Part shown: one piece after another, positions 18,535-58,070 of the stretch | Position numbering within the stretch: position 1 is the stretch's first letter | Layout of the letters: each line of letters opens with the position of its first letter | Assembly: GCA_021773355.1 (NCBI GenBank) | Contig: JAJFKE010000029.1 | Span: forward strand, 1 to 64,000 | Direction of reading: 5' to 3' | From: Gammaproteobacteria bacterium | GTDB lineage: Bacteria > Pseudomonadota > Gammaproteobacteria > Pseudomonadales > Pseudohongiellaceae | Length of the DNA stretch: 64,000 bases | The notes under the pieces: model-generated | Told to the model about the DNA's origin: nothing | The model's database searches: none | Seen by the model: only the letters and a program-made list of their open reading frames with translations | Program-made: the position numbers and the translations under genes

Positions 18535-18537
18535 GCC

Positions 18538-19134
18538 ATGTTAGACCCGCTCATTTTTAGATTGATTGCCATCGCCTTTGCCTTGCTATTAATCACCGCA
18601 GGTTTGCACAAAATTGGCGACAGATTGCGCTTTCAAGGCATTCTTCGCGGCTATCAGATTTTACCTGAACACCTGATAGCTCCAGTTAGCATGACAATCC
18701 CTGTGGTTGAAACATTATTAGGCCTAGCTTGGGCGTTTGCCTGGCAGATTGATCTGGTCTCTGTGGCGACAGCAGCACTGCTCACTGCCTATGGCATGGC
18801 CATGGGAATTAATCTTATGCGCGGCCGTAGCTATATCGACTGTGGTTGTGGTTTTTCGTCGCTAAAAGCTAGTCAAAACGACAGTGGTGTGCAGCAGTTA
18901 TCAAAGTGGCTGGTGGTTCGCAATCTGGTTTTGATGGTGCTTGCAACTATTGCCAGTGCTGATGTTTCAGACAGAAGTATGGGGGTGTTGGATTATTTTT
19001 CCCTGGTCGCTGCGCTACTCGCTCTGATTTTTCTCTACGCTGCCTTCAATCAGTTGTTAGTGAATAACAATGCTATCGATTCCTGGCGCAAACCTTTGCT
19101 TAAGAAGATCGAGGTTGAGGTGAGCCATGACTGA
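18538..19134 (+). CDS. mauE: MauE-family amine dehydrogenase maturation membrane protein
   Basis: Integral membrane protein of 198 residues with about five hydrophobic segments and a periplasm-facing YIDCGCGF cysteine motif, as in MauE and related DoxX/VKOR-like electron carriers. MauE and MauD are needed for export, folding and disulfide formation of the light chain, which has six disulfides in known enzymes. The gene starts 3 bp after aauB, and its last 8 bases overlap mauD, indicating coupled translation. The cysteines could pass electrons to MauD, which is inference from related systems. Confidence 0.9.
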   Translation: MLDPLIFRLIAIAFALLLITAGLHKIGDRLRFQGILRGYQILPEHLIAPVSMTIPVVETLLGLAWAFAWQIDLVSVATAALLTAYGMAMGINLMRGRSYIDCGCGFSSLKASQNDSGVQQLSKWLVVRNLVLMVLATIASADVSDRSMGVLDYFSLVAALLALIFLYAAFNQLLVNNNAIDSWRKPLLKKIEVEVSHD

Positions 19135-19807
19135 AGCATTACTAATTTCCAATATTGTCTTATGGCTTGTAATTATCGCCTTGGCCCTGTTGGTATTGGC
19201 ATTGACTCGCCAGGTAGGCATACTTCATGAAAGAGTCGCACCGGCGGGAGCCTTACTTCCAACTTCTGGACCGAAGGTTGGCGAGATAACTGAAGCCCTG
19301 GAACTCAAGGCCTTGGATGGCACGCAGTTGATCCTGGGTGGAGAAAATAATACAAAGCTCGCTACCTTTATCCTATTTATTTCGCCGACTTGCCCGGTGT
19401 GCAAATCATTGGTGCCAACCGCGATATCCTTAGTTAATTCCGAGAAGTCTCGCATGCGATTGCTGTTCGCCAGCGACGGTGCTGACTCTGACAAGCAAAT
19501 GTCGCAGCATAGATCCTATGTAACTGATCTGAATATCAGCGAGTACCCCTACATTATTTCGCAGCAGTTAGGAATGAGCTATGAAGTAAGCAAACTGCCG
19601 TTCGCGGTGCTAATCGGCGCCGATGGAATCTTGAAGAGCAAGGGGTTAGTGAATACTCGCGAGCATATGGAAAGCCTTATCGAATCCATGGATTCAGGTA
19701 TTGCAACGTTACAAGATTTTGTCGGACTTTCATCGTCAGATAAGGCCGATAAGGAAGATGAAGCGGTTAAAGAATTTGAGCGATCAACGGTGGAACGCAC
19801 ATCATGA
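19127..19807 (+). CDS. mauD: MauD, thioredoxin-like disulfide protein for light-chain folding
   Basis: Membrane-anchored periplasmic thioredoxin-fold protein (226 residues). A single N-terminal helix (about 4-25) is followed by a thioredoxin domain with the active site SPTCPVCKSL and the cis-Pro region KLPFAVLI. MauD is essential for stable amine dehydrogenase light chain, probably as a disulfide isomerase. A GAGGTGAG ribosome site lies inside mauE. The stop overlaps the light-chain start by 4 bp (ATGA), so production of the chaperone and its client is coupled. The acidic C-terminal tail (KADKEDEAVKEFE) is an extension. Confidence 0.92.
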   Translation: MTEALLISNIVLWLVIIALALLVLALTRQVGILHERVAPAGALLPTSGPKVGEITEALELKALDGTQLILGGENNTKLATFILFISPTCPVCKSLVPTAISLVNSEKSRMRLLFASDGADSDKQMSQHRSYVTDLNISEYPYIISQQLGMSYEVSKLPFAVLIGADGILKSKGLVNTREHMESLIESMDSGIATLQDFVGLSSSDKADKEDEAVKEFERSTVERTS

Positions 19808-20340
19808 ATATTGAAAGAATAATAGACAGTGGTTATTACTGGATTGATGACAAAGCACGGCGCACTAGCCTTTCTTTAGCGCGCAAACTATCGCGACGAA
19901 ACTTCTTGTCGAAACTCGGCATGATGTTAGCAGGCGCGGCGGCTTTTCCACTGCTGCCCGTGTCTCGATCTTTCGCGCAAAATTCCATACAGGAGGTGGG
20001 TGACCCGCAAAGTTGTGAATATTGGCGATACTGTGCCATGAGTGGATCGATCTGTGCCTGCTGTGGTGGCTCTTCCACGTCTTGTCCTCCGGGCACGCAG
20101 CCTTCTCCAATATCCTGGGTTGGTACCTGTCATAATCCGGTGGATGGGCGCGACTATCTCATGTCCTACAATGATTGCTGCGGCAAGTCCTACTGTGGTC
20201 GATGTAGTTGTCACCGTACCGAAGGAGATAAACCTGTGTATTTCAACAGCACCAGCAGCACGGTGTATTGGTGTTTCGGCGTCGAAGACACTAGTTATCA
20301 CTGCACCGTTTCATTGGTGCTAGGCTCTACGGACCAGTAA
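19804..20340 (+). CDS. aauA: amine dehydrogenase TTQ light chain
   Basis: Catalytic small subunit (178 residues). A long twin-arginine leader (SRRNFLSKLG at about 30-39, cleavage after SFA near 58) shows export by Tat. The mature part is cysteine-rich, with the family patterns CEYWRYC, CACCGG, CPPGT, DCCGKSYCGRCSC and YWCFG. Trp105 (ISWVGTC) and Trp156 (VYWC) align with the two tryptophans that become the TTQ cofactor (57 and 108 in mature methylamine dehydrogenase). Electrons leave TTQ to a blue copper protein or cytochrome c. No mauG, mauF, mauL, mauM or mauN lies nearby, so the TTQ-forming oxidase must be elsewhere or different. Confidence 0.95.
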   Translation: MNIERIIDSGYYWIDDKARRTSLSLARKLSRRNFLSKLGMMLAGAAAFPLLPVSRSFAQNSIQEVGDPQSCEYWRYCAMSGSICACCGGSSTSCPPGTQPSPISWVGTCHNPVDGRDYLMSYNDCCGKSYCGRCSCHRTEGDKPVYFNSTSSTVYWCFGVEDTSYHCTVSLVLGSTDQ

Positions 20341-20802
20341 ATGAGAGCGTGGGGTATAAGTAGCCCTCGGTGGCATGCTTCGAATATTGGCAAAAAAATA
20401 ACACTGGCTGTGCTGGCACTGTTGTTTGCCTTAGGCCCTATGGCAGCATCCGCTGCTAGCCCAAGAATTAACTATCTGTTGCATTGCAGTGGTTGTCATC
20501 TTCCCGGCGGCGAGGGTGCGCCACCGAATGTACCCACGATGCACGATGTACTCGGCCGTATGATGGCGGTTCCGCAGATGCGCTCCTATCTTGTGCGAGT
20601 GCCCGGCTCGGCGCAAAGTGCACTCAGCGATACTGATCTAACTGCTGTCGTAAACTGGGTGCTAACAGAGTTCAATGCCAAGACGCTACCTGCGGACTTC
20701 GAACCATTGACTCGCGACGAAGTAGCCACTGCCAGGAAAAGCATTCTCGCCGACCCGCTTAAGTACCGAATACAGCATTGGCGTAATTACGGCGAGGATT
20801 AG
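20341..20802 (+). CDS. periplasmic monohaem cytochrome c of the amine dehydrogenase operon
   Basis: Small exported cytochrome (153 residues): signal peptide (about 18-39, ending MAASA), one haem-binding CSGCH near residue 49 and a likely axial Met in the MMAVPQM region. It starts at the base after the light-chain stop, so it belongs to the operon. It matches in position the small monohaem cytochrome (orf-2) of the A. faecalis aau cluster. It may take electrons from the dehydrogenase directly or help make TTQ; neither is shown. No amicyanin or azurin gene is in the window. Confidence 0.88.
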   Translation: MRAWGISSPRWHASNIGKKITLAVLALLFALGPMAASAASPRINYLLHCSGCHLPGGEGAPPNVPTMHDVLGRMMAVPQMRSYLVRVPGSAQSALSDTDLTAVVNWVLTEFNAKTLPADFEPLTRDEVATARKSILADPLKYRIQHWRNYGED

Positions 20803-32730: not shown

Positions 32731-33047
32731 GATTGCTTCGGTTCTCTGGATATCTTGTTCTACGGCATAAATTAACAACAAGTATTTGACCATTACTTGG
32801 CTGCCAGATCAAAGCGTTTGAGCCAATGCAGCCGATCTATGCCTGGATTCGTTGACATAAAACAAGCCATTTGTGGGTTGTAGGAGGTGAAGCCCAAGGG
32901 CGCTGAATTTCAGCCACTTATTCTGCGTGGATAGGGCGCCAGGCAATGAGAGAAATAACGCAGTACTGCATTGGACAATTGGCGGGAATGGAGCGACTAT
33001 TTGGAACAATAGATTTTCCAGCAAACAAAGCAATGATGGTGACTGAT

Positions 33048-34814
33048 ATGACAATCCACAACTGCAGCGTCTTGAAAAGGTTGCTGCTTCCTTTGCCATT
33101 GTTGTTGGCTACCTTCAGTGCTAGTGCGCAGATAGAAGAATTCACCCCCGTTACTAACGAAATGCTGCAACAGCAACCGTCAGGCGAGTGGCTGAGTTGG
33201 CGCGGTAATCCGTCTTCCTGGGGTTATAGCCCCCTGGATCAAATTAACACCGACAATGTCAATCAGCTGCAACTTAAATGGTCATTCGCTTTGGATGATA
33301 CCGGCGCGGTACAGGCCGCTCCCTTAATCCACGACGGCATAATGTTTATCCCCTCAGCTCGTGGTGTGGTTCAGGCGCTGGATGCAGCCACGGGTGACTT
33401 GCTGTGGGAGTATCGACCGGCTCCCCCTACGGAAGAATTTATCAACTCTGGTGCGGGTACCAGAGCTGCCGTATTACCACCTGGTTCCTTCGCAGGTGTC
33501 GGCCGCGGCGTGCAGAAGAACATCGCCCTATATGGCGAGATGATTTATGCCGCCACCGAAACTGCCAGTATTCGAGCTATCGATGTACGTAGCGGTCTAT
33601 TAGTGTGGGAGACTCAGGTTGCAGATCCAACCTTGGGTTATTTCTATACAGCAGGACCTATCATCGCCAATGGAACATTGGTTACTGGAATTACCGGATG
33701 TGAACGCTACAAAGATGATGTTTGTTTTATTACCGGGCACGACCCCTTAAGCGGCGAAGAAAAGTGGCGTACTTCTACGGTAGCAAGGCCAGATGATCCC
33801 GGCGGCGATAGCTGGGGCGACCTGCCACTCAGGTTTCGCGCAGGCAGCGACGCCTGGGTTGCCGGTTCCTATGATCCCGAAGCTAATCTAATTTACTGGG
33901 GAACGGCACAGGCTAAACCCTGGGCGAGAGCAGTACGGGGATCAGATGGGGATGCCTTATACACCAATTCAACACTGGCATTGAATCCCGATAACGGTGA
34001 GATGGCTTGGTACTTTCAGCATCTTCCGGGTGAGACTCATGACATGGACGAAGTTTTTGAGAACGTGCTTATCGATGTAGAGGGTCAGAAGTCACTCTTT
34101 AAGATGGGCAAGCTTGGTATATTGTGGCAGTTGAACAGGGAGACCGGTGAGTTCATCAAGGGTACCGATATAGGCTATCAGACCATCGTCAATTTGAATC
34201 CCGTTACCGGTCAGATTACTTATAGGGACGGAATGATTCCTCGAATTGGCGAAGAAATAAATATGTGTCCAAGCACCTCAGGCTTTAAGAGTTGGCGTGC
34301 CATGGCCTATTCGCCAGATACCAGTGCCATGTATATTCCTATAACTCTAAATTGCGAGCTGGCCACTTTCGGTCCCACGGAACGACAGTTAGGTGGGGGC
34401 GGAACCGGTCCGGTAAGACGAGTCAACTATCCACATCCCGAGTCAGATGGAAACCTGGGGGAATTGCTCGCATTGGATATTCCCAGTGGCGAAGTTAAAT
34501 GGCGGTACCGTTCGCGGGCACCGATCAATACGGCTGCGCTAACCACCGCTGGCGGCCTGGTTTTCGCCGGGGACTGGAACCGCACCATGCTCGCTTTGAA
34601 TGCGGATAACGGAGAGGTGCTGTGGACAGTGCGCCTGAGCACATCGAATCAGGGTTTCCCTATTAGTTATATGGTCGACGGCAAGCAATATGTCGCCATG
34701 CCTGCAGGTACCGGCGGTGCCAGCTGGTCCGGCAGCTTGCCGAATCAACTCGCCCCCGAACTCAGCCGGCCGCGTAACGGCAGTTCTATCAATGTATTTG
34801 CACTTCCAGACTAA
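33048..34814 (+). CDS. PQQ-dependent dehydrogenase (beta-propeller quinoprotein), copy 1
   Basis: Periplasmic alcohol or sugar dehydrogenase of 588 residues. The ATG at 33048 starts a clean signal peptide (core LLLPLPLLLATFSASA); the frame is open to 32946 and includes ATGs at 33033 and 33036. The mature part shows the eight-bladed propeller with repeated LDAATGDLLWEYR-like docking motifs, the N-terminal WLSWRGNPSSWGYSPL and a HDMDE motif in place of the methanol dehydrogenase catalytic DYA region. The vicinal CC pair of methanol dehydrogenase is absent. A cytochrome c gene overlaps the stop by one base and is the likely electron acceptor. Paralogous to 36633-38429. Confidence 0.9.
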   Translation: MTIHNCSVLKRLLLPLPLLLATFSASAQIEEFTPVTNEMLQQQPSGEWLSWRGNPSSWGYSPLDQINTDNVNQLQLKWSFALDDTGAVQAAPLIHDGIMFIPSARGVVQALDAATGDLLWEYRPAPPTEEFINSGAGTRAAVLPPGSFAGVGRGVQKNIALYGEMIYAATETASIRAIDVRSGLLVWETQVADPTLGYFYTAGPIIANGTLVTGITGCERYKDDVCFITGHDPLSGEEKWRTSTVARPDDPGGDSWGDLPLRFRAGSDAWVAGSYDPEANLIYWGTAQAKPWARAVRGSDGDALYTNSTLALNPDNGEMAWYFQHLPGETHDMDEVFENVLIDVEGQKSLFKMGKLGILWQLNRETGEFIKGTDIGYQTIVNLNPVTGQITYRDGMIPRIGEEINMCPSTSGFKSWRAMAYSPDTSAMYIPITLNCELATFGPTERQLGGGGTGPVRRVNYPHPESDGNLGELLALDIPSGEVKWRYRSRAPINTAALTTAGGLVFAGDWNRTMLALNADNGEVLWTVRLSTSNQGFPISYMVDGKQYVAMPAGTGGASWSGSLPNQLAPELSRPRNGSSINVFALPD

Positions 34815-35248
34815 TGAACAACTATCCATCTAAAATCGGAATGACTGCTCTGCTGCTAGCCGCCTTCGGCGTAATCGGCAGCGCTTACAGCCAGGGCGAC
34901 ATTACAATCTGGGATGGTGTCTATTCCACCGAGCAGGCTACACGTGGGGCCGTAGTTTATAGCGATACCTGTATCGCCTGTCATGGGCAGGACCTTGGTG
35001 GCAATAGCAATGCGCCAGGTCTGGTGGGCATGGGCTTCATGTTTTTGTGGGAAGGGCGGACACTTGGCGCTTTCTTTGAAAAAATTCGAGAGGAAATGCC
35101 AACAGACCGGCCGGGACAGTTACCGCTGCAGAACTATCTTGATGTGGTGGCTTACATCATGCAAGCCAATTCGTTTCCTGCTGGAGACGAAGACCTGCCC
35201 CGTGACGTCGAGGCGCTCAATGGAATCGCGATCGCCTCTAAGTCTTAA
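34814..35248 (+). CDS. periplasmic cytochrome c, partner of the PQQ dehydrogenase
   Basis: Monohaem class I cytochrome of 144 residues: signal peptide (core MTALLLAAFGVIG, cleavage near AYS/QG), haem site CIACHGQDL and an axial Met candidate in VGMGFMF. The ATG overlaps the dehydrogenase TAA (TAATG), so the pair is translated together, as expected for an electron acceptor of the quinoprotein. Similar cytochromes are fused or adjacent to PQQ alcohol dehydrogenases in many bacteria. Confidence 0.92.
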   Translation: MNNYPSKIGMTALLLAAFGVIGSAYSQGDITIWDGVYSTEQATRGAVVYSDTCIACHGQDLGGNSNAPGLVGMGFMFLWEGRTLGAFFEKIREEMPTDRPGQLPLQNYLDVVAYIMQANSFPAGDEDLPRDVEALNGIAIASKS

Positions 35249-36632: not shown

Positions 36633-38429
36633 ATGCCAAGTCAGACTCCCCTTACTATTCGTACTCGTATCATCACGGCCGCAGTCTTACTTTACGCCTT
36701 TGTATTTTCCGCGGTGACACAGGGCCAATCGGTTGACGATTTCGTCCCAGTTACCGATGCCATGTTGCAGAATCCTGCGGACAGCGATTGGCTAATGTGG
36801 AGGAGAACTTTGGATAGCTGGGGTTATAGTCCCCTAGCTCAAGTCAATCGCAGTAACGTTGATCAGCTACGTTTGGTCTGGACCCGCGATCTTGCTACTG
36901 GTACAGGCGAAATTACACCGCTGGCCTACAACGGCATTCTTTATGTGCCGCAGGTCAATGACATAATTCAGGCCATAGAAGCGGAATCGGGTGATTTAAT
37001 TTGGGAATATCGGCGCGACATACCTGACGATCTATATGAGATGGTGGGCGGCAATGCACGCAACAATCGCAATCTGGCTATATACGAAAATCTAATTATC
37101 AACACTAGCGATGATAATTTTGTCTTCGCCCTTGACGCCTTGACCGGTGAAATGGTCTGGGAAACCGAGATTTTTGACTATAAAGTTAACTCAGCCACTC
37201 ACAGTTCAGGCCCAATCATAGCCGATGGCCGTGTAATATCGGGACGCAGCTGCCGCCCCTGGGGTGGGCCCAATGCCTGTGTTATTGCCGCCCATGACGC
37301 TAGAACCGGTGCGGAACTGTGGCGACGCAGACTGATTCCTGCTCCCGGCGAGCCCGGCGATGAAACTTGGGCAGATGTTCCCTTCGAACAACGTCAGCAT
37401 GTGGGCTCCTGGATGGTGCCGAGTTACGATCCAGAATTGAAGCTAATCATTCTCGGCACTTCGGTTACCTCGCCGGCACCAAAATTCTATTTAGGTGGAG
37501 TAGAGAACAAACATCTCTATCACAATTCTACTATGGCTCTGGAAGTTGAAACCGGTGAGATGCGTTGGTATTACCAGCACTTAAATGATCATTGGGATTT
37601 GGATCATCCCTTCGAGAGATTGTTGGTAGAAACCAAAGTCGCTCCCGACCCGGATGAAGTTAGTTGGATAAATCCAAACCTGGTCTCAGGTGAAGTACGT
37701 AAAGTAATCACCGGCATTCCCGGGAAAACAGGCGTGGTGTATACCCTTGACAGGGCCACCGGAGAATTTCTTTGGGCAACTCCGACGGTGCAGCAAAACG
37801 TCATCGAAAATATTGATGGAGCTACCGGAGTAGTCACCGAAAACCCAGAAGTTATCTTCCGGGAATCAGAACAGGTGGTGTTTGTCTGTCCCACCTGGAC
37901 TGGTGGCAAGGACTGGGAAGCGGGAGCCTATAGCCCGCTAACCAATACCATGTATTACCCCTTACGCAACACCTGCGCCAATATGATGGCGACGGCTAAT
38001 TTTGATAGTGACACGGCTCAGGCACTAACCGCTGGAGGGCAAGGGGGTCTCGCCATCTATTCTCTTGCCGCACGCCATCAGATTGCGCCGGGCACAGAAA
38101 ATCTCGGCACCGTGCGGGCGATCTCCGCAGAGACAGGTAAGACCGAATGGCTGTATGAACAGAGAGCGGGCACCATGTCTCTGGTAGCTACCGGTGGCGG
38201 TTTAATTTTTGGTGGTGATTCCAATGGCCGCTTTAGAGCACACGATCACGAAACTGGCGAAGTACTTTGGGAAGTTAACCTGGGTTCATCTGTTAGTGGC
38301 TATCCAATTACCTATTCAGTGAACGGAACTCAGTACGTGGCAGTCAATACCGGCAGTGGTCAGATAAATCTTACGCCGGAGCTGCGACCCAGCAGGGGCA
38401 CTAATGTCTATGTGTTTTCGCTGCGGTAA
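36633..38429 (+). CDS. PQQ-dependent dehydrogenase, copy 2
   Basis: Second periplasmic quinoprotein, 598 residues, start supported by AGGAG eight bases upstream. Signal peptide about 1-32 (core ITAAVLLYAFVFSAVT). Propeller motifs such as ALTGEMVWETEIFD and LDRATGEFLWATP recur, and HLNDHWDLDHPFE occupies the active-site strand. N-terminal residues FVPVTDAMLQ and WGYSPLAQVN mirror copy 1 (FTPVTNEMLQ, WGYSPLDQIN), so the two are paralogues that diverged in the substrate region. No cytochrome gene follows; it may share the one at 34814. Substrate unknown. Confidence 0.9.
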   Translation: MPSQTPLTIRTRIITAAVLLYAFVFSAVTQGQSVDDFVPVTDAMLQNPADSDWLMWRRTLDSWGYSPLAQVNRSNVDQLRLVWTRDLATGTGEITPLAYNGILYVPQVNDIIQAIEAESGDLIWEYRRDIPDDLYEMVGGNARNNRNLAIYENLIINTSDDNFVFALDALTGEMVWETEIFDYKVNSATHSSGPIIADGRVISGRSCRPWGGPNACVIAAHDARTGAELWRRRLIPAPGEPGDETWADVPFEQRQHVGSWMVPSYDPELKLIILGTSVTSPAPKFYLGGVENKHLYHNSTMALEVETGEMRWYYQHLNDHWDLDHPFERLLVETKVAPDPDEVSWINPNLVSGEVRKVITGIPGKTGVVYTLDRATGEFLWATPTVQQNVIENIDGATGVVTENPEVIFRESEQVVFVCPTWTGGKDWEAGAYSPLTNTMYYPLRNTCANMMATANFDSDTAQALTAGGQGGLAIYSLAARHQIAPGTENLGTVRAISAETGKTEWLYEQRAGTMSLVATGGGLIFGGDSNGRFRAHDHETGEVLWEVNLGSSVSGYPITYSVNGTQYVAVNTGSGQINLTPELRPSRGTNVYVFSLR

Positions 38430-49791: not shown

Positions 49792-50115
49792 ATGAAAAAT
49801 CTATTATTATTTACGGTTGCAATAATGTTGGCTGCTCCGATTTACGCGGCGGAGAATTCTAAGCACGAGCATGCTCACGAAGACACTAGTACAAGTGCAG
49901 GTGGGATGATGGCTATGATGAGTAAAGAGCAGATGATGGCAATGCAGGAACGCATGCAGGAAATGCGAGGGCTTATGGCTTCAATCAAACAGGAACAAAA
50001 TTCTGAAAAACGTATACAGATGATGCAAGAGCATATGGAAAATATGCAAGAAGGCATGCAGATGATGATGAGTCAGATGATGGGACTCCATTCTCAGGAC
50101 TCCGATTCTCAGTAA
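49792..50115 (+). CDS. small Met-rich periplasmic protein
   Basis: Exported protein of 107 residues: signal peptide to about residue 19 (APIYA/AEN), a short His-rich segment (KHEHAHED) and then a long predicted helix with about 25 methionines (GGMMAMMSKEQMMAMQERMQEM). Met and His clusters of this kind bind Cu(I) or Ag(I) in periplasmic copper proteins, so metal binding is a fair guess, though no named family was recognised. First of four small genes bracketed by the 117-bp repeats, with a SHOCT protein next. Confidence 0.75.
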   Translation: MKNLLLFTVAIMLAAPIYAAENSKHEHAHEDTSTSAGGMMAMMSKEQMMAMQERMQEMRGLMASIKQEQNSEKRIQMMQEHMENMQEGMQMMMSQMMGLHSQDSDSQ

Positions 50116-50209
50116 CGATGGTTCGTTGGCACCTTGGCCTACTGTAAATTAGGAATTTAGAGTAGCTGTTGATATTAGCAATTTACTATTGCAACGAAAG
50201 CGAGAAAAC

Positions 50210-50575
50210 ATGAGAAGACTCACTCAGTCTAAGTTTGCCGCATTGGGAGTGCTGATTGTCATGGTGTCCACTGGGGTGTGGGCGCAAGGGCCATCCGATC
50301 CCGAGAGGTATGCCTATGGCTCCCATATGATGTGGTCGGGCAGTGGATGGTTCGGCATGATATTCGGATTGCTATTTATGATTCTGGTGTTCGCCTTAGT
50401 GGTCGCGCTCGCAGTTTTCCTCGTGCGCTGGCTTGGTGACGGCCCAATGCGAGGATCAACAGGGAAAGGGCCAACGACCGAGAGCACTGCGCTTGATATT
50501 CTCAAGCAACGCTATGCTCGTGGTGAGATTGACAAAGAAGAATTCGAGGAGCGTCGCCGTATTCTTAACGAATGA
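50210..50575 (+). CDS. SHOCT-domain membrane protein
   Basis: Small protein of 121 residues. The ATG at 50210 gives a signal or anchor helix (core LGVLIVMVSTGVWA/QG), a His/Met patch (YGSHMMW), one long membrane helix (about 50-78) and a C-terminal SHOCT domain (ALDILKQRYARGEIDKEEFEERR). The longest reading starts at a TTG at 50189 without a ribosome site. SHOCT segments are short oligomerisation motifs; proteins of this build are common near copper or heavy-metal genes. Second of four small genes between the repeats. Confidence 0.82.
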   Translation: MRRLTQSKFAALGVLIVMVSTGVWAQGPSDPERYAYGSHMMWSGSGWFGMIFGLLFMILVFALVVALAVFLVRWLGDGPMRGSTGKGPTTESTALDILKQRYARGEIDKEEFEERRRILNE

Positions 50576-50801
50576 GCACTTCCTGCTTGCCCGAATCTGA
50601 TGTCTGGTTAAGTTATTCCTTCGGATAACCTGAAGTGGTGTGACAGGGAGATTCGATGGTAGGGAGGGATTGCCCATACTTGGAAAGGCATCTCTTTTTT
50701 GTATATCGCCGCGAATCGCCTAAGCCAGGAACGACTAAACATCACATTTCTTCAATTTTTTTTGGATTGATTGTATCTACAGTAAACGTATTTGACTCAT
50801 T

Positions 50802-51158
50802 TTGATTACTGCTAGACAAGCCCTGCTCATTCTAAATGACCCTCCATATGGCACCAAACGCTCTTATAACGGCTTGCGCTTGGCCAAAGCTTTGCGAGCT
50901 GATGGAGTAGAGGTTTATGTGTTTCTTCTTACCGACGCTGTGACCTGCGCCAAGAAAGGCCAAAAAGTGCCGGAAGGTTATTACAATTTGGAGCTTAGGA
51001 TTAAAAACCTGGCAAAAAATAATACCGTGTTGCTGTGTGCCACTTTCATGAATGCTCGCGGTTTGGATGACTCCGAAGTCGTTGAGGGGGCAAGTCGAAG
51101 TACAATGAAGGAATTAGTTGAGATTACAAAGCAAGCTGATAGGGTTCTGGTGTTCTAG
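50802..51158 (+). CDS. DsrE-family sulfur-relay-like protein
   Basis: Cytoplasmic protein of 118 residues with the DsrE/DsrF fold: LLILNDPPYGTKRSYNGLRLA at the N-terminus, VYVFLLTDAVTCAKKGQ and CATFMNARGL. Cys in TDAVTC and LLCATF lie where related proteins carry persulfide. The start is a TTG at 50802, fixed by an in-frame stop three codons upstream. DsrE proteins pass sulfane sulfur in oxidation and tRNA thiolation pathways. YeeE/YedE and rhodanese genes nearby support a sulfur link. Confidence 0.85.
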   Translation: MITARQALLILNDPPYGTKRSYNGLRLAKALRADGVEVYVFLLTDAVTCAKKGQKVPEGYYNLELRIKNLAKNNTVLLCATFMNARGLDDSEVVEGASRSTMKELVEITKQADRVLVF

Positions 51159-51312
51159 CTGAAGGAAAATTTGGATCAAAACATGCCCAAAGATTAAGAA
51201 GAAATCATCAGGGAGTAGTTGACTAATCGGTACCAGTAATTCGCATTGTACAATGCTGCAATTTATCGTATTTTGTCGAAAAATTTATTACCGATCAGCT
51301 GTCCCTTACATC

Positions 51313-51597
51313 ATGTTGCTGAAAACAAAAAAGACTACCCGCAAATGGCTTACACTGCTGTTTGTCGCCAGCTTTCTCCTGAATATCCAGGCCAGCTATG
51401 CCTGCGCCATGATGCCGGATATGGCAGAAAAGCAGACGGAGTGCTGTTGCGGTTCCAATCACCGCATGTCCACTACGCCTGACGCTATAGAAGGGATATC
51501 ATACTCAACAGATTTTGGAGATGCGCATTCTGTTCATGGTCAGATTTGTGACGATCCGCACCAGGGTTGTTGTATTGTCGAAATGAGTGGTGTTTAA
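51313..51597 (+). CDS. small Cys/His/Met-rich exported protein
   Basis: Exported protein of 94 residues from the ATG at 51313. Signal peptide (basic KTKKTTRKW, core LLFVASFLL, cleavage near ASYA). The mature part has CAMMPDM, a CCCG cluster, several His and a final CCIVEMSGV, a metal-binding composition. The last three codons and stop lie inside repeat copy B, so the repeat may have created the present C-terminus. An earlier ATG at 51253 lacks a ribosome site. No family recognised. Confidence 0.65.
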   Translation: MLLKTKKTTRKWLTLLFVASFLLNIQASYACAMMPDMAEKQTECCCGSNHRMSTTPDAIEGISYSTDFGDAHSVHGQICDDPHQGCCIVEMSGV

Positions 51598-51700
51598 GTA
51601 GAGTGCTAAAAGATTACCAGTAGCAGAACGTGAAACGGTGACGCGAATTACGTTATTTGAATTCATCGCGGAAGTTGGTAAAGGATATGAGGAGGCAATC
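51584..51700. repeat. 117-bp direct repeat, copy B
   Basis: Second copy of the element at 49144-49260, same orientation. It begins inside the last codons of the Cys-rich gene. The stem is AACGTGA (51627-51633) with TTACGTT (51648-51654); the C-to-T change is compatible with a G:U pair in RNA. The rest of the 286-bp gap up to the DUF3179 gene has no supported gene. Confidence 0.9.
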
Positions 51701-51883
51701 ATGGAAATGTGAATATAGTGAGGTTCCCTAGATAAGAATTCCTTCTAAGTCCCTAGCATAATACTGGAACCTAAAAGTTCTAGTCGCAATTAATGTTTTC
51801 GTATTCATTTTTTGTAATTTTCATACCACCCTCGGGGTCTCAATATACTCGTAGTAAATATTTACAATAGAAGGCACACGCTA

Positions 51884-52813
51884 ATGCCCTATGTTCTCTT
51901 CGTTGTTTTAACTTGGATAATGCTGGCTGGCACTGCGCGGGGGCAGACTCTTAATGGTTTCGACCTCAGTACTGCCTCAATCCCGCCATCGCTGATAAGG
52001 GGAGGAGGGCCTCCGCGCGATGGAATTCCAGCGATTGATAAGCCGGTCTTTCAATCTGCAAGCTCGGCTGACTGGCTCGATCCCGAAGACCGGGTCATTG
52101 GGATCGTTCTGAATGGAATCGCCCGGGCCTATCCCATAGCTATATTAAATTGGCATGAAGTTGCTAATGATGTTATTGCAGGGCAAAGAATTGTGGTTAC
52201 CTTTTGCCCGCTATGCGGTACCGGAATGGTTTTTGAGAGTAACGTTGAAGGACAGGCTCTGACATTTGGCGTGTCGGGCTTGTTGTATGAGAGCGATGTG
52301 CTGCTTTACGATCGCCAGACAGAAAGCCTCTGGTCACAAATTCTAAGCAAAGGCGTGAGCGGGGAAATGCGCGGCAAGCCACTGCATGCTCTACCTGTCA
52401 CCCACACGAGTTGGAGAGCCTGGCGCCAATCACACCCGGAATCCGAAGTGCTAAGCAGAGATACCGGTTCGTCACGTAATTATGGACAGGACCCATATAT
52501 CGGGTACGCAGATTCACCAAGAACGATGTTTCCCGTTGTCAACCAAGCACCTGGCCCATGGCACTCCAAGGAATGGGTGTTAGGATTTAATATCGGCGAT
52601 CAGTATAAGGCCTACCCGTTTATTGAATTGCGCGCAAACTCGAGTTCGCAAATTCAAGATCAATTATCGGGCGAGAGTTTCACCGTAATTTGGGACGAGG
52701 CCAACCAATCGGCATCAATAGTACGCGATGGTTTGTTGCAACCGAGCATTACCGCCTTCTGGTTCGCCTGGTATGCGTTTCATCCAGAGACATTGATATT
52801 CACTGCCAATTGA
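51884..52813 (+). CDS. exported DUF3179 protein with CPLC motif
   Basis: Exported protein of 309 residues, start after GAAGG. Signal peptide to about residue 21 (TARG/QT). DUF3179 core: DGIPAIDKPVF, a conserved RAYPIAILNWHEVAND, TFCPLCGTGMVF with a CxxC pair, and later LLYDRQTESLWSQ and RNYGQDPY. The function of DUF3179 is not known. The CPLC pair, His and Tyr residues suggest a redox or metal site. It precedes YeeE/YedE on the same strand. A second DUF3179 protein is encoded at 55401-56849 on the other strand. Confidence 0.9.
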   Translation: MPYVLFVVLTWIMLAGTARGQTLNGFDLSTASIPPSLIRGGGPPRDGIPAIDKPVFQSASSADWLDPEDRVIGIVLNGIARAYPIAILNWHEVANDVIAGQRIVVTFCPLCGTGMVFESNVEGQALTFGVSGLLYESDVLLYDRQTESLWSQILSKGVSGEMRGKPLHALPVTHTSWRAWRQSHPESEVLSRDTGSSRNYGQDPYIGYADSPRTMFPVVNQAPGPWHSKEWVLGFNIGDQYKAYPFIELRANSSSQIQDQLSGESFTVIWDEANQSASIVRDGLLQPSITAFWFAWYAFHPETLIFTAN

Positions 52814-53051
52814 AAGAACGGACTACCACATATGATGCCAATATAATGAGCCATCCCCATCCCTACTGTGTATTTGTATTCTTGCTGCTTAACACCCAAG
52901 CCGGCAGAATTCCTGAAGCACTCTCTGTATGTGGCTTTAGGAAACGGATATCGGGATATCGTGGCTAGCATTGTGACTGTGTAAACAGAAGAACCAAATA
53001 GCAACAATGAGTAACCTAACTGAAAATACCAAGCCTCATTCCAGGATATAA

Positions 53052-53978
53052 GTGTTGAATTTGATTCTTCTTCTTTCCTTTGCTGCCGTAATCGGGTATC
53101 TCGCTCAGGTCACCGGGCTTTGTATGGTGCGAGGCGTTCACGATTGGGTTAGGGGTAGAAAGCTTCGGTTGATTGCGATTCTTGGCGGTGGATTTTGGGT
53201 CTATTTGTATCTACCTTTTCTCTCTCAGAATTCAACGATACCAATTGGCTATGAGCTGCACTGGAGTTTTCTGCTGGGCGGCCTGATCTTCGGACTGGGT
53301 GCTGTTGTCAATGGTGCCTGTTCCATTTCCACTGCGAGTCGACTATCCAGTGGTGATTTGCAGATGATATTTACCATGATGGGTTGGCTTGGTGGATGGT
53401 TGTTGCTGGACTTCACCGGTATACAGTTTCAGCATACCGAGCTGACTTCATACAACGAATCGCTGACATGGATCATAGTCTTGTGTTTGATACTCGGTAG
53501 CGTCTGGGTATATGTCAAACAGAGTAAAAGTTGGAATATTTGGAGCGGCATCATGTTAGTGGGAATTCTAGCGGGCGCTATTTTCTTGCTGCAACCAGCC
53601 TGGTCACCAAGTGATTTTGTCAAAGACTTAGGCTTGGCAATTCTTAGAAAAAATCCTCAAATTCTCCCGGCTGTAGATAGAATTGCAATTTTGATGGTGA
53701 TGTTGCTGGGCATGAGTATTGGTGCCTGGCGCTATCGACGATTTAAATGGTTAGCGCCAAACCTGCGCGGAATAATCAAGCATTTTTCCAGCGGCATTTT
53801 GATGGGGCTCGGCGCCGCAATTAGCCTAGGAGGAAATGATTTTCAACTGTTGATGGCCCTACCTGCACAGTCCCTATCCGGCATTTTAGCGATTGCCGGA
53901 ATAATTATCGGCATTAGGCTAGGGATATTTCTAAATGCCAGACATATTTTTGTTAAAGAGATTCGAGGTAGTACATAG
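53052..53978 (+). CDS. YeeE/YedE-family (thiosulfate transporter-like) membrane protein
   Basis: Integral membrane protein of 308 residues with about nine hydrophobic segments. The GTG start follows AGGA by six bases. Two family motifs with conserved Cys are visible: TGLCMVRGVHDW near residue 20 and GLGAVVNGACSISTASR near 90, as in YeeE/TsuA channels where Cys residues relay thiosulfate. The second half has the matching GLGAAISLGGNDFQL, in which the Cys is replaced. Uptake of a sulfur compound is inferred from family. Lies 238 bp after DUF3179 and converges with TlpA. Confidence 0.88.
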   Translation: MLNLILLLSFAAVIGYLAQVTGLCMVRGVHDWVRGRKLRLIAILGGGFWVYLYLPFLSQNSTIPIGYELHWSFLLGGLIFGLGAVVNGACSISTASRLSSGDLQMIFTMMGWLGGWLLLDFTGIQFQHTELTSYNESLTWIIVLCLILGSVWVYVKQSKSWNIWSGIMLVGILAGAIFLLQPAWSPSDFVKDLGLAILRKNPQILPAVDRIAILMVMLLGMSIGAWRYRRFKWLAPNLRGIIKHFSSGILMGLGAAISLGGNDFQLLMALPAQSLSGILAIAGIIIGIRLGIFLNARHIFVKEIRGST

Positions 53979-53993
53979 AGCCATGAGTGCCCA

Positions 53994-54482
53994 CTATAGC
54001 TCCTTCAAGAGATTCAAGATTTCCTGCTTTAGCTCTATCTCATCGCCAGCTTTATAGTCGCGGTATTTCCTAACTATGCGACCTGCAGGACCGATTAGAT
54101 AGGATACCGGGAGGCTTCTTATTCCGTAAGGTTTTCCAATAGCACCTTCCGGGTCGGCCATTACAGGATAGGAGACAGGATGATCTTCCAGAAATTCCAA
54201 TCCGTTCTCAGTGTTTTCGTCGACGTTGACAGCTATGATTTCGAACCGGGGGTCGTCAATTTCGCGATACATCTTATCGTAGGCCGGAAGCGACAGCAGA
54301 CAGGGGGGGCACCAGGATGCCCAGAAATCCAGGAATACAACCCTGCCGCGGTAATCGGATAATTGGATAAGTCCGTTGCCGCCGATTTCTGCGGCGCTGA
54401 AATCCAACGCTAGTTCTTGCGCGAATGTGAGGCCAGGCAAAAAGAGAATAAGAAATGGCAGTTTGAGTGGGTTAAAGCGCAT
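53994..54482 (-). CDS. TlpA-like periplasmic thioredoxin
   Basis: Exported thiol-disulfide reductase of 162 residues. Signal peptide to about residue 21 (LTFA/QE), thioredoxin fold with active site WASWCPPCLLS and cis-Pro region SLPVSYLI, plus the TlpA insert region (VDENTENGLEF). Such proteins reduce disulfides in clients such as copper-chaperone Cys pairs or apo-cytochrome c. It overlaps the beta-barrel gene by 11 bp and is last in the DUF3179-barrel-TlpA operon, so a DUF3179 or barrel Cys pair is a plausible client. Confidence 0.92.
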   Translation of the reverse strand: MRFNPLKLPFLILFLPGLTFAQELALDFSAAEIGGNGLIQLSDYRGRVVFLDFWASWCPPCLLSLPAYDKMYREIDDPRFEIIAVNVDENTENGLEFLEDHPVSYPVMADPEGAIGKPYGIRSLPVSYLIGPAGRIVRKYRDYKAGDEIELKQEILNLLKEL

Positions 54483-55398
54483 AGGTCAAAGACAGTGCGT
54501 AAGAGTAGCTGGTGGTAAATTGAAGAGCACCTTCAAGGTCGCGAGCAATAGGTACGCGCCCTGACAGACCCAGAGTTAAATTATCGGTTACGCCATATTG
54601 AACCGCCGGAACGAAATCCAGCCATTCTCCTCCGGTGTTGGGAATATCAAAATCGCTGCGCGTGTCGGCGTTAGTGGTCCGATAACGCAGACCGGCTGAA
54701 TAGCCAAAGCGAGTTCCGATACTTTGGCTAAAACCAAGGGCAAAGTTAAATTCATCGCCGAAGGAATAATTACGATCGTTAGCCTCATCGTTAAATGTGT
54801 AGTTTGAAGACAGGTTCAATTGCATGGTCGCCGCCTGATTGAATGCATAGCTGTAGCTGGCCCAGAGAATTTCGCCCTCGGCTCCCACGCTAGGCTGCAT
54901 GTCTTCTGACTGAACAATGATGCCCCCCGCATCATCTTTGCCGATGGGCAATCGGGCGCCGATGCCGAGAGAAACCTCGTGGCGGGAAAATGGTGTGATG
55001 TACGAAGGAGTGTAACGCAGTAAGATCACTGCATCACCGAGCCCCGATGTGTGCTGTTCTCCAAAGAAACTGGTTCCCACACTACGGCTGTGTTCAACGT
55101 AGGACAGCAGGCCAGAAATGGACCAACGATTTGCCAATCCGTAGGTGCCGGAAACAACCTGAGAAAAAGAGGAGCGCTCTCTGTCTGATTCATCCCGAAT
55201 GTCTTTCGTGCCTTGAACCAGATCACTTATTTCGTGGAATTCCGTCGTATAGTTTATGTAAAAGTCGCCCGGCTCCGTCGACGACGAGTCGATAGCACTC
55301 AACAGGGGGGCTCCTGCACAACTACAGGTTGCGGCATCTAGTTGAATGCTCAACAGCGTGGAAGACAGCAACAAAAAAAGGGTAATTGCGCGGCGCAT
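54472..55398 (-). CDS. outer-membrane beta-barrel protein (transporter-like)
   Basis: Barrel protein of 308 residues. The ATG at 55398 is two bases after the DUF3179 stop (a TTG at 55404 is an alternative). Signal peptide to about residue 23 (QLDAA). The mature N-terminus carries a Cys pair (CSCAGAPLL), then alternating amphipathic strands (ISGLLSYVEHS, VSLGIGARLPIG, FGYSAGLRYRT) ending in SLTYAL. It resembles the PF13557-like 'MetA pathway/transporter' barrels. Placed between DUF3179 and TlpA with overlaps, so it belongs to their pathway. What passes or binds is unknown. Confidence 0.85.
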   Translation of the reverse strand: MRRAITLFLLLSSTLLSIQLDAATCSCAGAPLLSAIDSSSTEPGDFYINYTTEFHEISDLVQGTKDIRDESDRERSSFSQVVSGTYGLANRWSISGLLSYVEHSRSVGTSFFGEQHTSGLGDAVILLRYTPSYITPFSRHEVSLGIGARLPIGKDDAGGIIVQSEDMQPSVGAEGEILWASYSYAFNQAATMQLNLSSNYTFNDEANDRNYSFGDEFNFALGFSQSIGTRFGYSAGLRYRTTNADTRSDFDIPNTGGEWLDFVPAVQYGVTDNLTLGLSGRVPIARDLEGALQFTTSYSYALSLTYAL

Positions 55399-55400
55399 AA

Positions 55401-56849
55401 TCAATTTATTTCGGTTCCGGGAAAGAATGAAGTCCAGGCGAACCAGTAAGCTATAAATGAATTAGTTTTTTGCAACGTCGATCCTGTTCGCGGACCCGAG
55501 ACGGCAGAGCCAAACACATCCCATTGCGTTCCCTCGTTATCTATCATAACAATTGGTAATTGGTCTTGTACCGCTGTAAATTCCAGCGTTGTGCAGTCCT
55601 CTAGTTGTCGGTTATACATGACCGCAAAGTTTTGGCCAGCACTACCGGCAGCCACCACATCCATCCCGCCGACTCCGTCATGAATAAGAGATACCTCACT
55701 AGAGAAATCGGAAACTGGGTAGACCTTCGATTTATCTCCCACATTTATGCCTAGCACTCGCTCTTTTCTGTGTAATCGCAAGTCATTCTGATTGTTGACG
55801 TTGAACAATAGAGACTGATCGGTTCGAAAAGAGCCATATGGATAAATCCCGTAAGGACGACTAAATCCCGTATTCTCGGTCATCAGAATTGTTTCTGGGT
55901 ACATGGTTCGCCAGGTTTCCCAAGTGGTCTCAACTACTTGGGCCTTATTTGGAATACGCAATACCTCACTGCCGCTGATGGACTGCTCAAGCATCTGCGA
56001 CCACAGACTTCGTGTTTCACGGTCATAGAGAACCAAATTAGAATTAAGCAATAGTCCAGAAGTGCCAAACGTTTTGTTCGTCGAGTTTAAAAACCCCTCC
56101 CACATAACTGCCGAGCCGGTTAAAGGACAATAGCTCAGAGTCATCTGTTGTTGCTGGCCGGCCACAGTAAAAGTGTCATTGACCACTTCATGCCAATCCA
56201 ATATTTGATGTGGGTAAGCACGGACTTCGTCGCCAACTTTCACGCCTACCACCAGTGAATCTGGAAAGATTCCTGTCGACTCCAGATCTTGTGTGAAAAT
56301 CGGGTTGGTTAAGGGTGGGATACCGTCGGGAGCCGGGCCTCCGTCCTGAATATTGCTGGGATCAATGGAGAAACCGGATACAACAGGCGGATTGTTGGGG
56401 CCATTACTAAAATCCGGTTCGGGCCGGGTGCAGGTATTTGGGTCGCCCGCCGCAGTTTGAACGCCATTCAAACCTGCGCCTGCCAACTGGAAAATCAAAG
56501 GGTCTTCACTGAGCAAAATAAAATCTGCCCAATATGAAGCCCCGTCAACGGATAGGTCGGGAACCGACAAAGTGAGGCCTGAGAATGAGTTGGCATTCGC
56601 CGTGTCAATGCTATCGGTGCTGCCAAGTTCTTCAGCGCCTGTAAGAGTGATTAGCAGTGGAGAAGAATCGGGTATCAGGGAAAATTCAATTCGAAACGCA
56701 TTATCGGCGACTGTTACCACCGGTAGAATAATAGAGTTTCCGTCAAGGTTGCCACTTTGCCCCTGCACAAAATTGCTAAACAGTAGGACAGTCATCAGGG
56801 CAAGTTGTGTGAACAAAATCCGTAAACTAAATGCTGGATAAATTCTCAT
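55401..56849 (-). CDS. larger exported DUF3179 protein
   Basis: Exported protein of 482 residues from the ATG at 56849, which has GGAGGCG seven bases upstream; the frame is open to 56891. Signal peptide (core LFTQLALMTVLLF, cleavage near VQG/QS). A beta-rich N-terminal domain of about 120 residues (VADNAFRIEFSL, LTLSVPDLSVDG) is extra relative to the copy at 51884. The DUF3179 part has DGIPPLTNPIF, RAYPHQILDWHEVVND, LSYCPLTGSAVMW and LVLYDRETRSLWSQ. The CxxC pair of the other copy is CPLT here, so one Cys is lost. First gene of the operon with the barrel and TlpA. Confidence 0.9.
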   Translation of the reverse strand: MRIYPAFSLRILFTQLALMTVLLFSNFVQGQSGNLDGNSIILPVVTVADNAFRIEFSLIPDSSPLLITLTGAEELGSTDSIDTANANSFSGLTLSVPDLSVDGASYWADFILLSEDPLIFQLAGAGLNGVQTAAGDPNTCTRPEPDFSNGPNNPPVVSGFSIDPSNIQDGGPAPDGIPPLTNPIFTQDLESTGIFPDSLVVGVKVGDEVRAYPHQILDWHEVVNDTFTVAGQQQQMTLSYCPLTGSAVMWEGFLNSTNKTFGTSGLLLNSNLVLYDRETRSLWSQMLEQSISGSEVLRIPNKAQVVETTWETWRTMYPETILMTENTGFSRPYGIYPYGSFRTDQSLLFNVNNQNDLRLHRKERVLGINVGDKSKVYPVSDFSSEVSLIHDGVGGMDVVAAGSAGQNFAVMYNRQLEDCTTLEFTAVQDQLPIVMIDNEGTQWDVFGSAVSGPRTGSTLQKTNSFIAYWFAWTSFFPGTEIN

Positions 56850-57213
56850 TACTACGCCTCCGCAATCAAGCTCTTTGCTCGAGTCTTTCATTATTTTTCG
56901 CTTATTCGTTTTCGTTGTTCGATGAACACTAACTTTTTAATGACCGGAGGCCTTTGAATTTGCTTTCATTGTCCAAATAATTTTGCCAGCAAAATTACAA
57001 TCCTAATTGTACGGTCTAGTCTTGAAGCTTCACCTAGAAGAGAATTGAGGGTTTAAATGGCGAGTCCGAATTGGGCGCCCGGGGATTTTCCTAAGAGTCT
57101 TAAATTGTCAATTTACCTCCTCATCTACGCCCAAACTCAGCGCCCATGTCCTGGATCTATGGGATTGCTATTGTCGGCGGCTTGCTAAGGAGTATTGGCA
57201 GTATTCACCATTT
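56850..57213. other. intergenic, promoter of the DUF3179 operon
   Basis: 364 bp between the rhodanese gene 3' end and the DUF3179 start, both on the minus strand. It should contain the operon promoter. A 43-codon plus-strand frame at 57057-57188 has a GAGGG site but no recognisable content, and is not called. Confidence 0.4.
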
Positions 57214-57782
57214 CTATGGCTTATAGGAGGTTCTGTCTTTTCGTGAGAGTAAGCGTCTCCAGTACCAATTATAGGGATGCACACTTTCAGTTGAACCAAC
57301 AGCATTAACTAGAGGTTTGGACTCGTTATGCCAACGGAATATCCCTCCCTTCATGTTAGCCGGCTTTGCAGATGTTCCTTGTGAAGCCAAAATATTGGCA
57401 ACGTTTTCAGCTAGCTCGGTGGAGCGTCTGCCAGTTGAGCAATAGAAGATCACTGTATTTTCTTCCAGCAATTCGCCATAGTCTCGAATAAATCATGTGC
57501 CGGTGTATCCGGGTTCAGCCTGATTGCATTAGGAAGGTGACTTACGGCAAATTCATCTTCGGTGCGAACATCAAACAAATAGGTGCTTAAATTTTCATTT
57601 ACTAGACTATCCAAAACTATTTTATTGCTTAGATGCTCGACCACGCTATTTTCTTCAAGCGATTGCTCAATTCTATCAAGTGCACTGTCTGCAACCGAGC
57701 TTATAGAGTAAATGCCAATAAGCAATACCGGTAGTAATGACGAGACGTATTTCCGAAAAATTTTAAATCTACATTTACTCAT
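57214..57782 (-). pseudogene. exported rhodanese-like protein, frameshifted
   Basis: Starts at the ATG at 57782 (GGAAG eight bases upstream) with a signal peptide (core SSLLPVLLIGIYSISSVA). The rhodanese domain begins YLFDVRTEDEFAVSHLPNAIRL, then the frame ends at 57450. The rest continues in the next frame as YGELLEENTVIFYC, with the persulfide Cys in FYCSTGRRS, and FRWHNE, to a stop at 57214. The switch lies about 57470-57490. Either a one-base error or mutation splits the gene, or the domain is made by programmed shifting, which I think unlikely. Rhodaneses transfer sulfane sulfur, which fits the neighbours. Confidence 0.75.
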
Positions 57783-58070
57783 AACCTTAACTTCCTTCGC
57801 GTTGCTGGCCTTAGTATCAATAGCCCAATTTCCTAATATTCTATTTGAAACATGATACAAGTAATTTGCACTTCGAAATCACTATGCGAAGTGGAATTCG
57901 TTTATCTTTAAGTCTTGAAATCTTCTTGCACCGACCACACTATCTAGACAGGCGTTAGGGATGAATACTTACAAATATTGTGTGAATTTCCCTCAAGCCT
58001 GTCGGAGATAATTATTGCCACTACTCTATATAGAAAACTTAATAATTTAGATCGTTAACTGTTCAGCGCA

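Follow-up and report, generated by a model that had tools for sequence, protein, structure and literature searches.

Whether the two convergent gene sets between positions 49,792 and 57,782 of the window form one envelope system, or whether a smaller unit lies among them, is the question raised by this locus. The window is the whole stretch of 64,000 nucleotides taken from contig JAJFKE010000029.1, part of a genome of 5.08 Mb in 55 contigs, and the closest named relatives of its proteins are found in Pseudohongiellaceae and other Gammaproteobacteria. A preliminary description had read both strands as a single ten-gene system in which two DUF3179 proteins, a beta-barrel, and TlpA act together with a YeeE/YedE importer and with DsrE and rhodanese carriers of sulfur. 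Judged from comparison of sequences across genomes, this system gives way to a unit on the minus strand that is smaller, more sharply drawn, and much better conserved, in which a DUF3179 protein and a predicted outer-membrane barrel are encoded side by side, with TlpA often present as a third member. The observation behind the ten-gene system is partly confirmed and its interpretation partly supported, and the ten-gene reading itself is not supported.

The unit begins with a DUF3179 protein of 496 amino acids (55401–56891, minus strand), which carries an extra N-terminal region ahead of its DUF3179 domain and represents the barrel-linked, or CPLT, subtype. It is followed by a predicted 12-stranded outer-membrane beta-barrel resembling PF13557/COG4313 channels (54472–55404, minus strand; 28.8 bits against a PF13557 cut-off of 22) and, as the last gene of the trio, by an exported TlpA/ResA-like thioredoxin (53994–54482, minus strand). 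The latter has a signal peptide, a WCPPC motif, and a PF00578 match of 79 bits, which place it among the AhpC-TSA/Redoxin proteins with a CPPC motif, and it falls below the cut-off of the ResA subfamily (NCBIfam NF002854; 94.2 versus 170). The tight spacing given in the preliminary description stands, as the barrel and TlpA genes overlap by 11 bp and 2 bp separate the DUF3179 and barrel genes if the barrel starts at the ATG at 55398; with a TTG start, these two genes overlap by 4 bp. Promoter and terminator scans returned fewer sites than scans of shuffled sequence, and therefore no claim about transcripts is drawn from them.

A barrel-anchored search with one genome per species yielded 35 loci, the neighborhoods of which were searched in six frames. 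At 33 of these, DUF3179 stands next to the barrel in the same orientation; of the other two, one is a fragment at a contig edge and one a short partial match, so that the barrel adjoins DUF3179 in all 33 informative loci. The cultured Thalassotalea sp. G2M2-11 has the barrel, DUF3179, and TlpA genes in L109. The 33 comprise 27 proteobacterial loci, five from Candidatus Aminicenantes, and one from Candidatus Zixiibacteriota, the last two groups having the barrel gene first. At 18 of the 35 loci a TlpA gene adjoins the barrel in the same orientation, and the association beyond chance that had been anticipated from neighborhood searches is borne out to this extent, for DUF3179 and the barrel with or without TlpA, and is unsupported for the full ten-gene set. 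Within a sample of 137 genomes from the same family, the barrel occurs in 12, all of them among the 20 with DUF3179 (hypergeometric 2e-12, relatedness ignored), and of the 14 places with a barrel, 13 border directly on DUF3179 and the other lies at a contig end; the DUF3179-barrel-TlpA trio recurs in same-family genomes with its genes overlapping or nearly touching. Of the 391 genomes in the order sample, 36 have DUF3179 and three have the barrel, with the pair adjacent in all three, and DUF3179 is present in 48 of 398 genomes of the phylum sample. The minus-strand DUF3179 protein had no relative in viral contigs.

Searching up to 10 kb on each side of the 35 barrels, less at contig ends, with the window's own proteins (E 1e-4) revealed no relative of its YeeE, DsrE, SHOCT, Met-rich, or Cys-rich proteins at any locus, contrary to the claim that both strands share one logic. 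Such a search misses distant family members (its rhodanese row overlooked a rhodanese visible to Pfam in L094), and a Pfam scan of barrel neighbors was therefore made as a wider check. Among the 101 proteins scanned, of up to about 450 amino acids and from 27 of the 35 loci, no family occurred in more than four and rhodanese occurred in two, while YeeE, DsrE, and SHOCT were not among the 25 families, out of 158, that occurred most often, which leaves room for single cases. Likewise, no family besides DUF3179 itself was found in more than four of 40 order and phylum stretches around DUF3179 genes; gene calling missed DUF3179 in L197, L203, L212, and L224 of these, and the six-frame search recovers all but L212.

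The barrel of this unit is marked by a cysteine pair at its inferred mature start, which in the window reads TCSCA (residues 26–30; 55315–55329, minus strand) and is the proposed thiol lid. C(S/G)C occupies this position in all 33 loci where the N-terminus is available, the start being (A/Q/V)TC(S/G)C or a near variant, and the pair is kept in 117 of the best 120 barrel relatives listed, the other three being gapped there. As a control, 23 PF13557 matches in 20 chosen genomes were compared. Nine of them start with TC(S/G)C, and all nine have a DUF3179 motif within 1.5 kb, whereas none of the 13 complete barrels without TC(S/G)C at the mature start does (Fisher 2e-6, relatedness ignored). In two of these 13, a run of CCC lies within the signal peptide, and the remaining match is a contig-edge fragment. 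The cassette barrels of four of the 20 genomes (G016, G069, G110, and G504) are outside this control set and give no PF13557 match at E 0.001, which places the cassette barrels in a subfamily at the edge of that model. The predicted structure of the window barrel has 12 strands and a segment ahead of strand 1, with 4rl8 as its best fold match and a resemblance to FapF and autotransporter domains as well; its more conserved face is polar on most strands.

The DUF3179 partner has a signature of its own. The two DUF3179 genes of the window are the only ones found in the genome, and both pass the PF11376 cut-off of 27 bits, the minus-strand copy with 269 bits and the plus-strand copy (51884–52813) with 309. 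The latter is, as the preliminary description had it, of the CPLC kind, with its motif at 52205–52216, while the barrel-linked copy reads CPLT (Cys255–Thr258; 56118–56129, minus strand), with Cys255 as the predicted reactive cysteine. Barrel-linked proteins have CPLT in all 32 loci with a readable motif; the motif cysteine is kept in all 120 of the best relatives listed for the minus-strand protein, its own copy included, and across 46 aligned DUF3179 proteins H, E, N, and this cysteine are invariant and D is nearly so. A census of 71 DUF3179 frames, drawn from the window, 20 family stretches, and the 40 order and phylum stretches, counted 29 CPLC and 21 CPLT frames, the other 21 having no CPLx motif; the CPLT rows include fragments, and three of the CPLx-less frames lie near a barrel and are pieces of broken-up genes. 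The barrel stands beside none of the CPLC frames and beside 14 of the CPLT frames. Two CPLT genes precede the barrel in tandem in L048 (7609–10567), and L051 has a similar, broken-up tandem.

DUF3179 is an internal tandem duplication, its two repeats aligning with an hhalign probability of 95.9 and a score of 51 versus at most 19 in 30 column shuffles. In the plus-strand copy, the first repeat (52088–52234) retains H-E-x2-N-D and the C-P-L-(C/T) motif, and the second (approximately 52571–52723) has lost the motif residues. The first motif position is occupied by UGA in nine of the 11 TGA-bearing DUF3179 places of the family sample, in the context TF-U-xx-C-NSG. These nine genes (L032–L038, L268, and L269) belong to same-family genomes, and the seven in L032–L038 are outside the motif census; the other two places (G074 and G016 C34) are CPLT-type genes with the TGA elsewhere. 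Two reviews list DUF3179 as a selenoprotein family with UxxC/T, with which the UGA data agree, and a site that carries selenocysteine is an indication of redox chemistry. The two window copies encode Cys at that position and are free of in-frame stops, and neither is a selenoprotein of this kind.

A lipobox-like pattern is present in 12 of 29 linked DUF3179 proteins (doubtful in L113), and in five further ones, all from Aminicenantes, a Cys follows an atypical box. The linked proteins of distant clades are accordingly predicted lipoproteins, and DUF3179 is probably membrane-held. The AlphaFold2 model of the minus-strand protein is compact (pLDDT 89) and had no significant match among solved structures, and sequence searches with either DUF3179 protein gave no solved relative of note, returning two chance-level rows (E 0.64 and 0.74). 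The Rieske ligand motif CxH-x15-17-CxxH is not matched, as the frames mostly read (N/D)xH-x16-CxxC or (N/D)xH-x20-CxxT. No function for DUF3179 was found in the searched literature, in which the relevant passages give a selenoprotein-family listing or a gene-table entry.

Taking together the observed side-by-side genes, the paired cysteines of the barrel, the CPLT motif, the duplication within DUF3179, the UGA codons of relatives, and the likeness of the predicted barrel to COG4313 channels, we tentatively propose, with somewhat less than even confidence, that the minus-strand DUF3179 protein is a thiol redox partner of the predicted outer-membrane channel with its inferred TCSC start and that TlpA, where present, is its likely electron donor. 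In a solved COG4313 channel, the N-terminus enters the pore (PMC4493636). By analogy with this one structure, the segment before strand 1 of the cassette barrel would lie in the pore from the periplasmic side, and with an N-terminal segment so placed the CSC pair would sit on a lid. A membrane-held DUF3179 protein would reach this lid, and its motif cysteine, the second Cys of CPLC being Thr in the linked copy, would exchange with the CSC pair, which would alter the open state of the channel or its affinity for a ligand. TlpA, where present, would then return the thiols to the reduced state; the earlier suggestion that TlpA keeps cysteines of DUF3179 or the barrel reduced is plausible and gains from the barrel TCSC. 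A bolder version, which we consider improbable, is that DUF3179 constitutes a new family of thiol oxidoreductases (selenol in relatives), the barrel-linked branch of which gave up its second cysteine and works on the pore-lid pair, with electrons fed by TlpA opening or closing the pore. If thiols do gate the channel, the redox state of the periplasm would be coupled to outer-membrane permeability.

Several results weigh against the proposal of a thiol redox partner. Residues 13–32 of the barrel model, which include TCSC, have a pLDDT below 50, so the lid is placed by reference to the solved relative. Of the 33 DUF3179-barrel pairs, 15 have no adjacent TlpA (in L105 one sits 1.3 kb off on the opposite strand), and another reductant or other chemistry must serve there. 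Seven of the 21 CPLT frames are without a barrel. CPLT DUF3179 genes that lack a barrel are seen in L046, L050, and L052, which share a neighborhood of similar-looking genes. The nine UGA relatives carry UxxC rather than UxxT, and a check around seven of them (L032–L038) found no barrel, so that selenocysteine is not seen in the barrel-linked branch and this evidence comes from cousins of the cassette. The correlation of 0.72 between barrel and DUF3179 distances (n = 29; no more than 0.22 in 1000 permutations) is a sign of common descent rather than of contact. The family-sample and barrel-anchored loci are partly from the same genomes, their counts are never summed, and relatives are not independent of each other. 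Finally, TCSC and the His and Cys residues of DUF3179 would suit a soft metal as well.

This last point leads to an alternative in which the two proteins are a metal-handling pair, the barrel CSC and the DUF3179 His and Cys residues binding a soft metal such as Cu(I) in uptake or export while TlpA only keeps thiols reduced. A CxC together with His/Cys sites suits soft metals, the invariant residues of the aligned DUF3179 proteins fit such a role, and a Met-rich protein lies near the cassette in the window. We nonetheless consider it unlikely, given that none of the 35 loci shows a relative of the Met-rich, SHOCT, or Cys-rich protein near the cassette and that UGA at the Cys position in relatives favors redox catalysis over metal binding. 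Doubtful, yet with a slightly better claim, is the idea that the channel admits a substrate on which DUF3179 acts as a periplasmic cysteine enzyme, with TlpA resetting it. COG4313 channels have been implicated in uptake (PMC4493636), and in L048 and L049, from one same-genus group, the cassette stands in a long co-directional run in which Pfam identifies cytochrome c, a PQQ dehydrogenase, a TAXI binding protein, a TRAP permease, an NHL protein, and rhodanese, with similar-looking genes around the cassette in L044, L047, and L051. Among the loci seen, however, this context is confined to same-genus genomes; it is absent from distant cassettes and is therefore not built upon. The low recurrence of any one family among the scanned neighbors also speaks against a processing pair, which leaves the barrel TCSC unexplained. 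The same is true of a third proposal, that DUF3179, or the region at its N-terminus, reaches the cell surface through the barrel; the lipobox-like patterns of the partners and a compact, confidently modeled DUF3179 protein ill suited to a 12-strand pore make secretion quite improbable.

The view of the preliminary description, that both strands constitute one sulfur-relay system with YeeE as importer and DsrE and rhodanese as persulfide carriers, is in our estimation very improbable and largely refuted by the PF04143 and 35-locus searches. The genes it listed are present as open frames and are mostly named by Pfam (SHOCT, DsrE, two DUF3179, Sulf_transp, AhpC-TSA/TlpA-like, a Phenol_MetA_deg barrel, and rhodanese), and their physical adjacency in the window is the first argument in its favor. 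On the plus strand lie the genes for a Met-rich exported protein (49792–50115), a SHOCT protein (50189–50575), a DsrE/DsrF-like protein (50802–51158; PF02635, 81 bits), and a small exported Cys-rich protein (51253–51597), followed by the CPLC-type DUF3179 gene and a YeeE/YedE-type membrane protein (53052–53978; PF04143, 61 bits). The Met-rich and Cys-rich proteins had no Pfam match above cut-off, and all of these except DUF3179 are local neighbors outside the conserved cassette. Gaps of 73, 226, 94, 286, and 238 bp separate the six genes, so that the single plus-side transcript that had been proposed is not evident, nor is one required. The CPLC-type DUF3179 gene is convergent with the trio in the window, with YeeE between them, whereas in L041 and L042 it is directly divergent from the trio at about 160 bp, with no YeeE, DsrE, SHOCT, or Met-rich gene between, and in L040 it stands alone.

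YeeE matches the broad PF04143 family and falls far below the TsuA thiosulfate transporter cut-off of NCBIfam (19.8 versus 400 bits), and at E 1e-8 none of the other 136 family-sample genomes has a relative of it. Of 97 genomes that match DUF3179 (family, order, and phylum samples), 68 were searched for PF04143. The search found it in 53, yet within about 6 kb of DUF3179 in just four: adjacent in the window genome (G000) and G842 and about 4 and 5 kb away in G402 and G845. The only adjacent case besides the window thus comes from one genome, and no PF04143 match shares a contig with the barrel in any of 13 other genomes that have the barrel; the DUF3179-YeeE link appears weak on this sequence evidence. 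G842, from a different gammaproteobacterial family, has a tight two-gene unit of DUF3179 (CPLC) and YeeE (L244, 116–2287), which does favor the relay, and in a published list both families have selenocysteine forms (PMC13188914). DsrE matches the broad PF02635 and falls below the TusD cut-off (TIGR03012; 40.7 versus 89.25 bits). Its four relatives in the family sample are all in genomes without a DUF3179 or barrel match; two of those stretches show DsrE beside a gene read as a putative ArsR-type regulator, and in the other two no DsrE appears in the gene calling. DsrE as a metal-island gene was considered and set aside. The minus-side rhodanese that had been reported is a Pfam rhodanese, but its exported gene (57214–57860, minus strand) is frameshifted into two overlapping frames, 57450–57860 and 57214–57471, the shift being either real or an assembly error. 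Some relatives have rhodanese genes a few kb away from the cassette, which counts for the relay; their rarity among the scanned neighbors and the frameshift count against it, and the proposed sulfur import and persulfide carriage gained no support from the neighborhood data.

Elsewhere in the window, a cluster of the methylamine/aromatic-amine dehydrogenase type (17428–20802, plus strand) comprises a heavy chain, MauE, a thioredoxin-like protein, a light chain, and a small cytochrome-like protein. Two PQQ dehydrogenases (32946–35248 and 36633–38429, plus strand), one followed by a small cytochrome c, are also present; relatives of such PQQ dehydrogenase and cytochrome genes lie near the cassette in sister genomes and not in the window.

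A neighbor that occurs at every informative locus, with a matching cysteine signature, turns the orphan DUF3179 into part of a defined two- or three-protein device, with a likely partner and a testable role. The searched literature, which did not extend to most subscription journals, yielded no description on point of a DUF3179-barrel pair or a redox-gated outer-membrane channel; comparison can be made with the nearest known systems. The window TlpA shares with TlpA/ResA proteins an exported thioredoxin fold with CPPC, and it differs in that its gene stands in a single run with those of DUF3179 and the barrel. For other members, a link to cytochrome c assembly is known. MtrB of Shewanella differs from the cassette barrel in being a larger barrel around a cytochrome. 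Both are outer-membrane barrels with an N-terminal cysteine pair, in MtrB a CxxC, and PMC12175506, reporting Wee et al., describes MtrB C42 as needed for iron reduction and as proposed to form a disulfide with another protein, so that by analogy MtrB offers a precedent for a functionally needed N-terminal barrel cysteine. The listed selenocysteine members of DUF3179 (PF11376; UxxC/T) have the domain and the motif position in common with the window copies, which carry Cys rather than selenocysteine, the linked copy having CPLT and adjoining the barrel. A further likeness is to the COG4313 channels (Pput2725, SphA, and TcpY; PF13557), with their 12 predicted strands, similar length, segment before strand 1, and the fold match to 4rl8. 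Pput2725 is a proposed carrier of hydrophobic molecules (PMC4493636), whereas the conserved face of the cassette barrel is polar on most strands, and the cassette barrels are also set apart from these channels by the TC(S/G)C of their inferred mature N-terminus together with a DUF3179 neighbor in every informative locus.

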